From NCBI GenBank assembly GCA_013298565.1, contig JAAFIC010000022.1, positions 1 to 41,210 of the forward strand: a stretch of DNA of 41,210 bases. Reading direction: 5' to 3'. Within the stretch, counting starts at the first letter, position 1. The number at the start of each line of letters is the position of its first letter. Below are positions 8,480 through 40,903 of this stretch, in pieces. The DNA is from Alphaproteobacteria bacterium. Its GTDB lineage: Bacteria > Pseudomonadota > Alphaproteobacteria > Elsterales > Elsteraceae. The translations under genes and the position numbers were made by a program. The notes under the pieces are model-generated. The model did no database searches, was not told the DNA's origin, and was given only the letters and a program-made list of their open reading frames with translations.

Positions 8480-9037
8480 CTAAGATTGAGCCGCGCTCAA
8501 CTGAGCGCGATAGGTGCTGCCGAACCCAACGTAACGGTCGGCAGAGCCTGCAATATTCTCTATTTCTGCGGGTTTGAGGGGGCGTAATAGACGTGCGGGA
8601 TTGCCTGCCCACAACTCGCCCGCCGGCACGGTTTTATGGGGCGAGATCAAGGCCCCCGCCGCCACCATGGCATCGGTTTCAACGGTCGCCTGATCCAGAA
8701 TCACTGCACCCATACCAACGAAGCAGCGGCTTTTCAGCGTGCAAGCGTGCAAAATCGCCCCATGACCAATGGTTACATTGTCCCCGATATAAGTGCCTGC
8801 CTTGAACTGAGTGGCATGAACCACGGTGCCATCTTGGATATTCGTACGCGCGCCGATGCGAATTTCATGTACATCACCGCGAATGACCACACCGAACCAG
8901 ATGTTCGAGTCCGGCCCGATCACCACGTCACCGATAATCACCGCGCCGGGCGCTATAAAGGCGCTTGCGTGAATGGTTGGCCATACACCATTCCAGGGCA
9001 GCAGAATCGGCCCCGGAACGGCCCCCAGCCCCCTCAT
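8480..9037 (-). CDS. Gamma-carbonic-anhydrase-family protein (left-handed beta-helix)
   Basis: A 185-residue hexapeptide-repeat protein of the gamma-CA/YrdA/PaaY type. The repeated [VI]-G-x4 turns run through GAVIIGDVVIGPDSNIWFGVVIRGD. Three putative zinc-binding histidines are present: H74 in GTVVHATQ, and H92 and H97 in TIGHGAILHACTL. The conserved GNPARLLRPL lies near the end. Members bind metal and trimerise, and some hydrate CO2, but many have no proven activity. Its ATG overlaps the argC stop as ATGA, so translation is coupled to argC. The functional link to arginine synthesis is unclear. Confidence 0.88.
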   Translation of the reverse strand: MRGLGAVPGPILLPWNGVWPTIHASAFIAPGAVIIGDVVIGPDSNIWFGVVIRGDVHEIRIGARTNIQDGTVVHATQFKAGTYIGDNVTIGHGAILHACTLKSRCFVGMGAVILDQATVETDAMVAAGALISPHKTVPAGELWAGNPARLLRPLKPAEIENIAGSADRYVGFGSTYRAQLSAAQS

Positions 9038-10074
9038 GGGAAGACGGCCACGAGGTCCAGCCCCGTGGTTTCCGGCAGGCCAAGCATAGCGTTCATATTC
9101 TGAATCGCTTGGCCCGATGCGCCCTTCACCAAATTATCAATGACCGATAGAATGATAGCCCGGCCCGGCAGGCGGTCGGCGATCACATTCATATGGCAGC
9201 GATTGGTAGCGCGCACGTGTCGGGTTTGCGGCACGTCTTTACCCGGCAGTACGGAGATAAACGGCTCATCCCGATAACGCCCCAGCAACGTGGCCTTCAA
9301 ATCCTCAGCACTCACACCGGGGCGTAGCTTCACATAAATACTCGACGCCATGCCCCGGCTCATCGGCATCAGGTGCGGGGTGAAGTTCACCAACACTGCC
9401 CGGCCCGCCGCGCGCGACACATCTTGTTCGATTTCCGGCGCGTGGCGGTGCGAGGCAACGCCGTAAGCATGCACGCCTTCAGTCACTTCGCAGTAAAGCG
9501 AGCCTTCCTTCAGCGACCGCCCGGCCCCGGACGTGCCGGTCTTGGCGTCGATGATAATATCGTCGGCGTCGATCTGTGCGGCCTCGATCAGCGGCAGCAG
9601 CGGCAGCAAGGCCGACGTGGGGAAACAGCCAGGGTTCGCCACCAGCCGGGCGTTAGATACCGCCGCCCGGTGGATTTCCGTAAGGCCATAGACCGCCTCG
9701 GTCTGAAGCCCCGGCGCTTGGTGGGCGTGGCCGTACCATTCGGCGTAGGTGTCGAGATTATCCAACCGGAAGTCTGCTGACAGATCGACGATCCGCAGGT
9801 GCGACGGCAGCCCGGCGATCACGGCTTGCGTGGTGCCGTGGGGGAGCGCGCAGAAGACGAAATCAACGCCGGACCAATCCACATCGGCAATCGCCCCTAA
9901 ATCGGGCAGACCAAACGGCGCAAGCTGCGGAAAAACACTGCCCACGGGCTTACCCGCGCTGCGATCCGCCGTCAGCGCCACAAGGCGTGCGTGGGGATGA
10001 CCGCGCAGCAGGCGAATAAGCTCCGCCCCGGTGTAGCCGCTGGCCCCGAGAATGGCGATCCGAATTTCCGACAT
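9034..10074 (-). CDS. argC: N-acetyl-gamma-glutamyl-phosphate reductase
   Basis: A 346-residue NADPH-dependent reductase of arginine biosynthesis, converting N-acetylglutamyl phosphate to N-acetylglutamate semialdehyde. It has the Rossmann start IRIAILGASGYTGAELIRLL, the catalytic cysteine C150 in VANPGCFPTSALL, and the substrate-binding stretch KTGTSGAGRSLKEGSLYCE. Length matches the long (type 1) ArgC class. It lies downstream of rplM-rpsI in the same direction, which is a conserved neighbourhood in alphaproteobacteria, but a terminator and a structured repeat now separate it from rpsI. It may therefore need its own promoter within or beside the repeat. Confidence 0.95.
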   Translation of the reverse strand: MSEIRIAILGASGYTGAELIRLLRGHPHARLVALTADRSAGKPVGSVFPQLAPFGLPDLGAIADVDWSGVDFVFCALPHGTTQAVIAGLPSHLRIVDLSADFRLDNLDTYAEWYGHAHQAPGLQTEAVYGLTEIHRAAVSNARLVANPGCFPTSALLPLLPLIEAAQIDADDIIIDAKTGTSGAGRSLKEGSLYCEVTEGVHAYGVASHRHAPEIEQDVSRAAGRAVLVNFTPHLMPMSRGMASSIYVKLRPGVSAEDLKATLLGRYRDEPFISVLPGKDVPQTRHVRATNRCHMNVIADRLPGRAIILSVIDNLVKGASGQAIQNMNAMLGLPETTGLDLVAVFP

Positions 10075-10093: not shown

Positions 10094-10231
10094 TAGAGCG
10101 TCTTGCGTAAAGGTTGACGCAAGACGCTCTAGTTTTATTTTAGCCCTCGCCGGGCGGGCGCATCCGCGCCCTTGGCCGCAGTCTCAATGGCTGCTTTTAG
10201 AGCCGCGCCAGAGTTAAGGCGCGCGGCTCTA
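10094..10231 (-). repeat. Structured intergenic repeat, copy A (138 bp)
   Basis: Read on the minus strand this copy runs from TAGAGCCGCGC (10231) to CTCTA (10094). In order it contains an 11-bp perfect hairpin with a 12-base loop (10231-10198), a small imperfect hairpin (GCAGCC/GACTGC), a GGGCGC-GGAT-GCGCCC hairpin, and a 15-bp perfect hairpin TAGAGCGTCTTGCGT/ACGCAAGACGCTCTA with an 8-base loop (10131-10094). It is nearly identical to the copy at 40323-40489 apart from a 29-bp deletion and a few substitutions. It lies between the rpsI terminator and the argC start. It could be a REP/MITE-like mobile palindromic unit; no transposase is present. Confidence 0.9.
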
Positions 10232-10233
10232 AA

Positions 10234-10264
10234 CAAAAAAAGAAGGCACCCGTTGCCGGATGCC
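10234..10264 (-). terminator. Intrinsic terminator of rplM-rpsI
   Basis: On the minus strand GGCATCCG-GCAA-CGGGTGCC forms an 8-bp stem with one mismatch, followed by TTCTTTTTTTG. It starts 33 bp after the rpsI stop, so most ribosomal-protein transcripts probably end before argC. Confidence 0.85.
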
Positions 10265-10297
10265 CCCTGATTTCTAACACAAACCTCCGAAGAAGGT

Positions 10298-10783
10298 TTA
10301 GCGCTTCGAGAACTGGAAGCTGCGGCGGGCCTTGGCCTTACCGTACTTCTTACGCTCGACCACACGGCTATCGCGCGTAAGGAACCCACCGGCCTTCAAC
10401 ACGCCGCGCAGGCCCGGCTCGAAATAGGTCAACGCGCGGCTAATGCCATGACGCACGGCACCAGCTTGACCCGACAAACCACCACCGCGCACTGTGCACC
10501 AAATGTCAAACTGACCGGCGCGATCAGCAACCTGGAACGGTTGATTGATCAACATCCGCAGCACAGGACGCGCGAAATACACGACACCCTCACGGCCATT
10601 CACCGTAAGCTTGCCAGTACCCGGCTTCACCCACACGCGAGCGACAGCGTTTTTGCGCTTGCCCGTGGCATAGGAGCGACCCTGTGCATCAATCTTCGGC
10701 TCGGCAGGCGCGGCAACAGCGCCTGAAACAGCAGCAGGCGCCTGACCGGCAACCTTCTGAAGAACTTCAAAACCTTGGGACAT
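10298..10783 (-). CDS. rpsI: 30S ribosomal protein S9
   Basis: A 161-residue S9. The S9 fold starts at about residue 36 with [20 protein letters not shown] and includes [16 protein letters not shown] and [17 protein letters not shown]. The universally conserved C-terminal [11 protein letters not shown] ends in Lys-Arg, the tail that contacts P-site tRNA. The N-terminal 35 residues are an Ala/Pro-rich extension typical of alphaproteobacterial S9. It begins two bases after the rplM stop, giving the usual rplM-rpsI operon. Confidence 0.97.
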
Positions 10784-38292: not shown

Positions 38293-39192
38293 GTGAGCAC
38301 TGAAACTTTCAGCCCGCGCTATCGCGATCTCGACGCCTGGAATCCTGATGAGATTCTGGGCGCGCTGCTCGATAGCCAATTCTGCGCCGTCGCCGCCGTT
38401 AGTGCCGCGCTCAACCCGCTCGAACGGGCTGCGGTGGCGATTGCCCAGCGCTTACGGAAGGGGGGGCGCATTGTCTATGTTGGTGCAGGCACCTCGGGCC
38501 GAATTGCCGTGCAAGATGGCGCGGAACTGCCCCCCACTTTCGATTGGCCGCGCGACCGCGTGGTGTTCATTGTGGCTGGCGGCATGAACGCCCTCACTCA
38601 ATCGGTCGAGGGCGCGGAAGACGACAGGGAAGCCGCGATTTGCGCGATTGAAGATGAAGGCATCGGCCCGGAAGACTCGGTGATCGGGCTGGCGGCTTCG
38701 GGCGCAACGCCCTTCACGGTCGCAGCCCTTCAAGCCGCCCGGCAACGCGGCGCGCTGACCGTGGGGATCGCCAATAACGAGGACTCGCCCCTGCTGAACG
38801 CTGCCGACTATCCGATCTTGCTGGATACCGGGCCGGAAGTGGTGGCAGGCTCGACGCGGCTGAAAGCAGGCACGGCCCAAAAAATCGCGCTCAACCTGAT
38901 CTCGACTGTCGTGATGATCCAGCTTGGCCGCGTCTATGACGGCATGATGGTCGATATGGTTGCGGCCAACGATAAGCTGCGCCGCCGCTCCGAACGGATG
39001 CTGCATCGGCTGACGGAGGCCCCGTTGGAGACTATCCAAGCCGCCCTCGATGCCGCCAACGGCAAAGTAAAACTGGCGCGCGTGCTGCTGGAAGGGCTTG
39101 GCGTATCGGAAGCCCGCGCGCTGCTCGATGTCCACAACGGCCACCTACGCCCGGCCCTGGCCGCTATCGCCAACCGCCGCACGGCACTATGA
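38293..39192 (+). CDS. murQ: N-acetylmuramic acid 6-phosphate etherase
   Basis: A 299-residue SIS-domain lyase that cleaves the lactyl ether of MurNAc-6-phosphate to GlcNAc-6-phosphate and D-lactate in cell-wall recycling. GGRIVYVGAGTSGRIAVQDG is the SIS sugar-phosphate site and E78 in QDGAELPPTF is the catalytic acid position. GLAASGATPFTVAAL, TGPEVVAGSTRLKAGTAQKI and TVVMIQLGRVYDGMMVDMVAAN are diagnostic of MurQ. Start is GTG 38293. Its stop overlaps the nagA ATG (ATGA), so the two successive recycling steps are translationally coupled. Confidence 0.95.
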   Translation: MSTETFSPRYRDLDAWNPDEILGALLDSQFCAVAAVSAALNPLERAAVAIAQRLRKGGRIVYVGAGTSGRIAVQDGAELPPTFDWPRDRVVFIVAGGMNALTQSVEGAEDDREAAICAIEDEGIGPEDSVIGLAASGATPFTVAALQAARQRGALTVGIANNEDSPLLNAADYPILLDTGPEVVAGSTRLKAGTAQKIALNLISTVVMIQLGRVYDGMMVDMVAANDKLRRRSERMLHRLTEAPLETIQAALDAANGKVKLARVLLEGLGVSEARALLDVHNGHLRPALAAIANRRTAL

Positions 39193-40325
39193 GCACGCTC
39201 ACTCTTGCCGTCCCGCGCCTGTTCAACGGCGAGGAATGGCGGGAGAATGCCTATATAAGCGTTCAGGACGGCGTGATTATCAGCGTTTCCGAAGCGCCCC
39301 CTAGCACACACACTCTCCTACACCTCCCCGCCGATCACCTGCTGGTGCCGGGCTTTATCGACGCGCAAGTGAATGGCGGCGGCGGCGTGTTGTTCAACGA
39401 TGCCCCCGATATTCCGACGTTGGAACGCATCGCCGCCGCCCACCGCCGCTTCGGCACGACGGCCTTTCTGCCAACGCTGATTTCCGATACGCGGGAGAAG
39501 ATGCACGCGGCGCTACAGACCGTGCGAAAGGCGATTGATATACGAATACCGGGGATCGTTGGCGTGCATCTGGAAGGCCCGTTCCTGGCGCCAACGAAGC
39601 ATGGCGCCCATGCCGCCAATGTTATCACGGCGCTGACTGACGCCGATGTCGCTTGGCTCGCGCAGCCCTTCCCCGGCACGCTGTTGCTTACCCTCGCCCC
39701 AGAAGAGGTGCGCGATCCCGGCTTTCTCACCGCGCTTCGGACCGCAGGCGTGGTGCTCGCCGCAGGTCATAGCGCCGCCAGTTACGAGCAAGCCATGACG
39801 GGGTTCGACAGCGGCATGAGCGGTGTCACGCATCTTTTTAACGCCATGACGCCCCTAAGCGCCCGCGCGCCGGGGCTGATTGGGGCGCTGCTGGATCATC
39901 CCGATACTTGGGCGGGCATTATCGCCGATGGGGTTCACGTTCACCCTGCCAACCTGCGCCTCGCTTTGCGGCTGCTGGGGCCGAAACGGTTACTGCTGGT
40001 AACGGACGCTATGCCGCCCGTGGGCAGCACTGTTAGCCGCTTCACGCTCGGCGGCCAGTCGGTAGAGGTTCGGGATGGGGTTTGCGTGAACGAAAGCGGC
40101 GGGCTGGCAGGCTCGGTGCTCGATATGGCGTCCGCCGTCCGCACAATGGTGTCCCAGGTCGGCGCGAGCCTGTCGGATGCGCTTCGCATGGCGTCCACCA
40201 CGCCCGCCGAGCGCCTACACCTACACAACCGGGGCCGCATCGCTCCCGGTTTCCGGGCCGATATGGTCGCCCTCACGCTTGATCTGCGCGCCGCCCGCGT
40301 CTGGATCGGCGGGCGGGAGGATTAG
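39189..40325 (+). CDS. nagA: N-acetylglucosamine-6-phosphate deacetylase
   Basis: A 378-residue amidohydrolase converting GlcNAc-6-phosphate to glucosamine-6-phosphate and acetate. It has metal ligands E129 in GVHLEGPFLAP, H194 in AAGHSAASYEQA and H215 in GVTHLFNAM, and catalytic D273 in LVTDAMPPVG. GFIDAQVNGGGG near residue 56 and the IIADGVHVHP segment are standard for NagA. The coding sequence ends at TAG 40323-40325, which is also the first base triplet of the 40.3-kb repeat copy, so the repeat provides the stop codon. It overlaps murQ by four bases. Confidence 0.95.
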   Translation: MSTLTLAVPRLFNGEEWRENAYISVQDGVIISVSEAPPSTHTLLHLPADHLLVPGFIDAQVNGGGGVLFNDAPDIPTLERIAAAHRRFGTTAFLPTLISDTREKMHAALQTVRKAIDIRIPGIVGVHLEGPFLAPTKHGAHAANVITALTDADVAWLAQPFPGTLLLTLAPEEVRDPGFLTALRTAGVVLAAGHSAASYEQAMTGFDSGMSGVTHLFNAMTPLSARAPGLIGALLDHPDTWAGIIADGVHVHPANLRLALRLLGPKRLLLVTDAMPPVGSTVSRFTLGGQSVEVRDGVCVNESGGLAGSVLDMASAVRTMVSQVGASLSDALRMASTTPAERLHLHNRGRIAPGFRADMVALTLDLRAARVWIGGRED

Positions 40326-40489
40326 AGCCGCGCGCCTTAACTCTGGCGCGGCTCTAAAAGCCGCCATTGAGGCGGCGGCCAAGGGCGCGGATGCGCCCGG
40401 CCAAGCGCTTGGCGCGTCAAACGCACCTGGCGGCGAGGGCTAAGATAAAACTAGAGCGTCTTGCGTCAACCTTTACGCAAGACGCTCTA
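40323..40489 (+). repeat. Structured intergenic repeat, copy B (167 bp)
   Basis: This is the longer copy of the element at 10094-10231, in opposite orientation. It contains an 11-bp perfect hairpin (40323-40356), then GCCGCC-ATTGA-GGCGGC, GGGCGC-GGAT-GCGCCC, a perfect 14-bp palindrome GCCAAGCGCTTGGC, GCGT-CAA-ACGC, and the 15-bp perfect hairpin TAGAGCGTCTTGCGT/ACGCAAGACGCTCTA (40452-40489). The two palindromes in the middle lie in a 29-bp segment absent from copy A. Its ends read TAG on entering from either side and are the stop codons of nagA and osmC. On the minus strand the 15-bp hairpin is followed by GTTTTATC, so it may also terminate osmC. Confidence 0.92.
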
Positions 40490-40903
40490 AGCCTCGATCA
40501 CTTCAATCGTGTGGCTGATCTCAGCGGTTTTACCCAGCATGATCGAGGCGGAGCAGTATTTCTCTGCCGACAGGGCCACGGCGCGCTCCACCGCCTCGCG
40601 TGGCAGGTTCTTGCCGGTGATGCGGTAGTGCAGGCGAATGGCGGTAAACACTTTCGGGTCGGTCTCGGCACGGTCGGCTTCGGCGCTGATTTGGCAGTCG
40701 GTGATCGCGTGGCGGCCCTTTTCCAGAATCATCACCACATCGAACGCCGTGCAGCCGGCAAGCCCCGCCAACAGCATTTCCATCGGGCGAATGCCAAGGT
40801 TGCGCCCCCCCGCTTCGGGCGCACCATCCAGCACCACCGCATGACCGCTGCCCGATTCGGCGACAAAGGTGCGGGCTTCCAGCCAAGTGACTTTCGCCTT
40901 CAT
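40487..40903 (-). CDS. OsmC-family peroxiredoxin-like protein
   Basis: A 138-residue OsmC/YhfA-type protein. The two redox cysteines are C51 in GLAGCTAFDVVMIL and C117 in AEKYCSASIML, with the beta-rich N-terminal half WLEARTFVAESGSGHAVVLDG. OsmC proteins reduce organic hydroperoxides through these cysteines; the YhfA branch, which this resembles, has no proven substrate. Its ATG overlaps the upstream amidotransferase stop (ATGA), so it is translationally coupled to trpG/pabA. Its stop TAG (40489-40487) is the terminal triplet of the adjacent repeat. Confidence 0.9.
   Translation of the reverse strand: MKAKVTWLEARTFVAESGSGHAVVLDGAPEAGGRNLGIRPMEMLLAGLAGCTAFDVVMILEKGRHAITDCQISAEADRAETDPKVFTAIRLHYRITGKNLPREAVERAVALSAEKYCSASIMLGKTAEISHTIEVIEA

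Follow-up and report, generated by a model that had tools for sequence, protein, structure and literature searches.

The stretch of DNA analyzed here, a window of 41,210 nt at the start of contig JAAFIC010000022.1 of an Alphaproteobacteria bacterium (assembly GCA_013298565.1), contains two nearly identical non-coding segments that are built from several hairpins and lie between genes. This raises the question what kind of element the segments represent, how they came to occupy these sites and which enzyme may have moved them.

Two copies of a multi-hairpin repeat

Copy 1 is a short form of 138 bp (10094..10231, minus strand) located between rpsI (10298-10783, minus) and argC (9034-10074, minus), with its left end pointing to the 3' end of rpsI. 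Copy 2 comprises 167 bp (40323..40489, plus strand) and is flanked by nagA (39189-40325, plus) and osmC (40487-40903, minus), two convergent genes. According to Pfam the neighboring genes encode ribosomal protein S9 (rpsI), a semialdehyde dehydrogenase (argC), an amidohydrolase (nagA) and OsmC. The preliminary description had reported two segments that are near-identical except for one 29-bp indel as well as perfect hairpins of 11 and 15 bp beginning with TAGAGC and ending with GCTCTA, and both observations were confirmed. Inverted pairs between the copies showed 95% identity for 10152-10232/40322-40402 and 98% for 10094-10152/40431-40489, with the single 29-bp indel in between. The window contains exactly four palindromes of the type TAGAGC-N10-32-GCTCTA, which are the four outer hairpins, at a shuffle expectation of 0.02.

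Both copies show the same layout of an outer hairpin, two inner hairpins and a second outer hairpin. In copy 1 (all minus strand) the left outer hairpin has 34 nt with 11-bp arms and the outer end TAGAGCCGCGCGCCTTAA (10198..10231). It is followed by the conserved core (10138..10195), consisting of stem 1 (GCAGCC-ATTGA-GACTGC), GGCCAA, stem 2 (GGGCGC-GGAT-GCGCCC) and GCCCGGCGAGGGCTAAAA, and by the right outer hairpin of 38 nt with 15-bp arms (10094..10131). In copy 2 (all plus strand) the first three bases of the left outer hairpin (40323..40356) are the stop codon TAG of nagA (40323-40325). The core stems GCCGCC-ATTGA-GGCGGC, GGCCAA and GGGCGC-GGAT-GCGCCC (40359..40398) are followed by the 29-bp module that is lacking in copy 1 (40399..40427, edges approximate) and by the right outer hairpin (40452..40489), whose last three bases CTA (40487-40489) represent the stop codon TAG of osmC on the minus strand. 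Compared to shuffled sequences, folding of copy 2 gave a z-score of about -7.3, as DNA or as RNA.

Copy 1 adjoins a terminator-like hairpin with a T run (10241..10268, minus strand), which belongs to rpsI and is not part of the unit; the sequence of this hairpin is kept in the same-genus relative G001, which does not have the unit. The TA of copy 1 is located just beyond the T run of this strong hairpin.

Copy number and architecture in the genome

The genome from which the window derives consists of 3.02 Mb in 126 contigs. With copy 2 as query, scoring of 40 out of 140 candidates, copy 1 not included, already yielded at least 43 unit-like places, and a covariance-model search showed more copies of the core. 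Exact TAGAGC-N8-38-GCTCTA palindromes were found 130 times genome-wide compared to 9 times for the reversed control. The repeat is thus not limited to the two copies in the window, and the earlier proposal of a mobile multi-copy palindromic unit holds, with dozens of copies in this genome and relatives in many Alphaproteobacteria.

Parsing yielded 36 complete units with lengths of about 138, 167 and 197 bp. The length steps of 29–30 bp correspond to two mutually inverted modules (21/26) flanking the core on either side, the 197-bp form carrying, across the core from the 29-bp module, a diverged inverted copy of it. While the outer termini are conserved (TAGAGC in 31/34, GCTCTA in 33/34), the right hairpin has CGAGAGC on its inner side in several copies. 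A test for long terminal inverted repeats showed that the two outer ends have only TAGAGC and scattered bases in common, each end being palindromic in itself. The flanks of different units are unrelated. Regarding gene context, 20 of the 36 units are found between convergent genes, 6 in tandem arrangement running left to right and 2 running right to left; the identical orientation relative to transcription described for the two window copies is therefore correct for these, but not a rule for the genome.

Some of the 130 exact palindromes belong to a second class of TAGAGC...GCTCTA hairpins, about 42 bp long (TAGAGCGTTTTTCGTTCAC-like) and with Y and R flanks, that occurs apart from the unit (G000, the genome studied here: C13:28051, C22:3145, C24:36305, C43:993 and others). 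At one locus two units, L025 and L028 (G000:C72:58443-58774), are positioned end to end in opposite orientation with one TA in common, as if the terminal TA of one unit had served as target for the other.

Target site and empty sites

The base preceding the left TA is a pyrimidine in 27/27 parsed units and the base following the right TA is a purine in 26/27, so the target is YTAR with duplication of the TA. We searched the joined flanks of the units in same-genus genomes. For L072, a unit on contig C1, relative G002 shows GCGC-TA-AACC where the genome studied here has GCGC-TA[unit]TA-TACC, and for L098 and L019 a single TA is present in G001. The comparison for L093 is not clean since the relatives have no TA at this site (GATTGAGC). 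At the argC-rpsI site the unit is absent from G001, the spacer being diverged and the comparison not base-exact, and several empty sites in the relatives are diverged. The unit behaves as a MITE.

Coincidence of unit ends with stop codons

The arrangement of copy 2, with a stop codon at either end, is not an isolated case. In the set of 27 parsed units, 15 gene ends coincide with the terminal TAG (offset 0), and any other offset accounts for at most 2. Considering all 36 units, the terminal TAG serves as stop codon of a neighboring gene in 16 (12 left, 8 right, 4 both), a count that misses one right end, that of osmC, which was overlooked by the mechanical gene caller. As background, 22 of 224 non-coding YTAR sites in the same flanks are stop codons, corresponding to an enrichment of about 8-fold in odds (Fisher p about 8e-7), a size that is approximate because gene calls were mechanical. 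The empty single-TA sites for L072 and L016 in G001/G002 are stop codons of the orthologous genes: the L016 orthologues end in TAA, and at L072 in G002 both convergent stop codons use one TA. More generally, the orthologues have TAA or TAG as stop codon at the corresponding position.

These observations suggest how an insertion could be tolerated. The unit would insert at the TA of YTAR and duplicate it. The element proper begins with G. When it enters a TAA or TAG stop codon at the TA, the outcome is TA-G; TA and the first G of the element form TAG, so that the stop is rebuilt and the gene survives. Copies would build up at the 3' ends of genes, often between convergent genes, because genes with a rebuilt stop survive. 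The coincidence with stop codons probably reflects tolerance plus target choice. Either a preference of the enzyme for stop sites or better survival of such insertions could be responsible.

A contribution to transcription termination may be considered as well. The right hairpin of copy 1 is followed by TTTTATTTTA on the plus strand and that of copy 2 by TTTTATCTTA on the minus strand, both giving a terminator-like layout, and A-rich DNA is found at the equivalent position in Asticcacaulis. The right hairpin together with the T run would be predicted to terminate transcription. The T-run layout and the frequent placement between convergent genes fit either termination or mere tolerance.

Similarity of the unit ends to IS630 elements

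The preliminary description had noted the absence of a transposase. This is true for the surroundings of the two copies, but elsewhere the genome carries a truncated IS630-type (DDE_3) transposase gene (L047, G000:C120, 1414-2000), the only such gene found, which encodes 188 codons and is followed by the right end CTCGATGCTCTAG. Its closest relatives are found on plasmids of Azospirillum and Neorhizobium, where the IS630 elements are bounded by C-TAGAGCATCG... (also given as C-TAGAGCATCGCGCC...) and ...CGATGCTCTA-G; the left end of the Phaeospirillum IS630 element reads TAGAGCGTTCTGCGAATAGGTTGA.

The outward-facing ends of the unit match the IS630-family ends of Azospirillum and Phaeospirillum. 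Counting only the 18 nt past TAGAGC, the outward arm of the left hairpin agrees with the Azospirillum left end in 13/18 positions. For the right hairpin, of which two types occur, the outward arm agrees with the Phaeospirillum left end in 14/18 positions (first type) or with the Azospirillum ends in 13–14/18 (second type). The left hairpin's inward arm reaches 5–6/18. The summed end score was reached by none of 3000 shuffles. The left ends of the Azospirillum and Phaeospirillum elements differ, and each end of the unit fits a different one best. Judging from these alignments, the orientation of the ends is what a MITE needs. A match to a known IS end had initially been regarded as an argument against a mobile palindromic unit; such a match exists, and it supports the MITE version of this idea instead.

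In our view the repeat is very probably a MITE, a DNA transposon without genes of its own that is mobilized by an IS630-type (Tc1/mariner-like, DDE_3) transposase acting in trans and targeting the TA in YTAR. The transposase would bind two outward ends, each composed of TAGAGC and about 20 nt and each provided by one outer hairpin. It is the sequence similarity of the ends that points to an IS630 transposase as the putative mover. An intact IS630 transposase was not found in the genome or in two same-genus relatives, where a search for PF13358 gave no hit; the assembly, being split into 126 contigs, may lack IS copies.

The core in other Alphaproteobacteria

The core pattern GCGGCCAAGG-stem-CCGCCCGGCGAGGG together with the left stem was detected in Asticcacaulis, Tistrella mobilis, Magnetospirillum, Paramagnetospirillum, Telmatospirillum, Caenispirillum and many MAGs, in a search that fixed the invariant letters, so that their invariance is no evidence. 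A covariance model located the core in 20 of 385 genomes of the class with patchy distribution, most of the 20 having weak scores. The outer hairpins differ between lineages. The core is a separate, older module that occurs elsewhere with other ends. No occurrence of the core string was found in the literature searched. A phage search gave no match, and a plasmid search gave matches only in Tistrella, plus Asticcacaulis when an Asticcacaulis query was used. In one strain of Tistrella mobilis the core is present on four plasmids (pTM1-3 and NC_017959.1), in part as short tandem arrays. Coding by the core was considered and rejected: relatives differ in its length by one or two bases, and it is therefore not a conserved peptide.

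Stems 1 and 2 of the core show 54 compensatory cells compared to a shuffled mean of 14, and one one-sided change. Such covariation, the terminator-like right hairpin with TTTTATTTTA and the convergent placement of 20/36 units would agree with a functional structured RNA or terminator family that is selected at gene 3' ends and for which mobility is secondary. We consider this unlikely. The near absence of G-U steps suggests that the feature being retained is a palindrome in the DNA, not a helix in RNA, and a single one-sided cell against 54 compensatory ones fits DNA palindromes better than RNA helices; replication repair of imperfect palindromes could produce the same picture without selection. 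In addition, Rfam gave no match at gathering cut-offs and its weak matches were at chance level, and sites are empty in relatives.

In two MAGs, LL4.bin51 and bin-0134, the ends of the units read TACCGG.. or TACGAAG.., and 24 of 31 units are flanked by identical 3-bp TNA sequences (p about 1e-9 against a one-in-four chance). The whole hairpin-core-hairpin is therefore the transposed unit there, moved by another enzyme, and because of these 3-bp duplications IS630 is not the mover of the whole core superfamily. In the 3.2 Mb of LL4.bin51 (G060) the core is matched exactly 233 times, a density of about one match per 14 kb, and several of these matches form tandem pairs 129 bp apart. Among 17 units of LL4.bin51, 4 gene ends coincide with the flanking TNA, with at most 2 at other offsets, which represents a weaker form of the stop-codon pattern described above. 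In 212 kb of LL4.bin51 no transposon-spaced pair of TACCGG ends with matching TNA flanks was found that would indicate an IS, nor was PF13358 detected in the LL4.bin51 sequence examined.

The outer hairpins might also be independent palindromic mini-elements that flank the core by chance, with only the hairpins moving. TAGAGC hairpins do occur apart from the unit, including the 42-bp class, and all of their ends lie in TA. Against this, conservation concerns the outer termini, several copies having CGAGAGC at the inward side of the right hairpin; moreover, the order of left and right hairpin around the core is fixed, and the TNA duplications of relatives enclose the complete unit, making this explanation quite improbable.

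The IS5 family has subgroups with TA/YTAR targets and subgroups with TNA targets. An IS5-family (IS427/IS1031-like) mover instead of IS630 would consequently account for both the YTAR family and the TNA relatives in LL4.bin51 and bin-0134, and PF13586 transposases are present in the genome studied here. However, the sole IS5-type element with placeable ends has the TIR GGCTCCAGACTCATAA, which is unlike the unit, no TAGAGC end pair was seen around the other IS5-type elements, and the match to IS630 ends extends far past TAGAGC, so that we regard an IS5 mover as very improbable. The element with placeable ends (L227, G000:C33, 1476-2315) has TA flanks and is unrelated to the repeat. As a partner in the same genome, an IS5-type element was rejected since its ends do not match the unit.

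Spread as a REP/BIME by a Y1 (RAYT) transposase, with the inner core as REP, is hardly credible, since despite a hairpin-rich core that, like BIMEs, forms short tandem arrays (about 60 bp) in G041, Tistrella and MAG bin-0078, the genome has only the truncated IS630 transposase and no Y1_Tnp (PF01797), for which control genomes were positive, and the TA and TNA duplications around the whole hairpin-core-hairpin point to DDE transposition. The RAYT-like transposase that the preliminary description had envisaged was thus not found, and of its labels MITE stands while REP and BIME have to be dropped in view of the TA target duplications and the IS630-like outer ends.

Keeping to a MITE moved by an IS630-type transposase for the genome studied here, we tentatively put forward a broader view, for which the odds appear slightly unfavorable: the conserved palindromic core may be a mini-transposon chassis across Alphaproteobacteria whose ends are swapped between transposases (IS630-like with TA; another enzyme with TNA), both hitting stop codons harmlessly. 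In usual MITEs the IS ends are kept and the inside varies; if the chassis reading is true, the reverse applies here. Why the core is kept across the class while ends and target rule change is a testable question. A unit that targets stop codons or survives in them and rebuilds them would, if true, explain the high density of repeats in a compact genome.

Comparison with known elements

RUP and other IS630-derived MITEs are non-coding elements of ~100-200 bp with many copies, IS630-like ends and a TA target, and RUP is over-represented between convergent genes (PMC2229807, PMC3049150). The unit resembles RUP in size, lack of coding capacity, copy number, IS630-like ends, TA target and excess between convergent genes. 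However, RUP is one simple unit of one species group, whereas the unit described here has a hairpin at each end, two core hairpins and optional modules. It further differs from RUP by a core that is common to a class with other ends, and by the stop codons that are struck and rebuilt. The IS630 elements of Azospirillum, Neorhizobium and Phaeospirillum have TAGAGC... ends and a TA/CTAG target like the unit, but differ from it by their length of about 1 kb, a transposase gene and the lack of the core.

SPRITE and Correia-NEMIS resemble the unit as small palindromic repeats located close to the 3' ends of genes; some of them are terminator-like, and for some a longer form with an insertion inside exists. 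Their hosts differ, and the describers of SPRITE found no IS with SPRITE-like ends.

Among described elements, RUP is the nearest parallel for the mechanism and the Caulobacter CIR for the layout. The account of CIR given in a review (PMC2229807) describes two long inverted-repeat arms and a linker, TA ends, an intergenic location and conservation in Alphaproteobacteria. Going by this description, the unit shares with CIR the two inverted-repeat arms joined by a linker, the TA ends and the intergenic location. CIR is ~110 bp long and bears GANTC, which in contrast is present in neither window copy and in only 4 of 34 units; in Asticcacaulis GANTC is found in the 5' arm of 16 of 24 core-bearing loci. 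If the reading proposed here holds, the unit may connect IS630-type MITEs with the intergenic repeats of Caulobacter and other Alphaproteobacteria, which have long gone unexplained.
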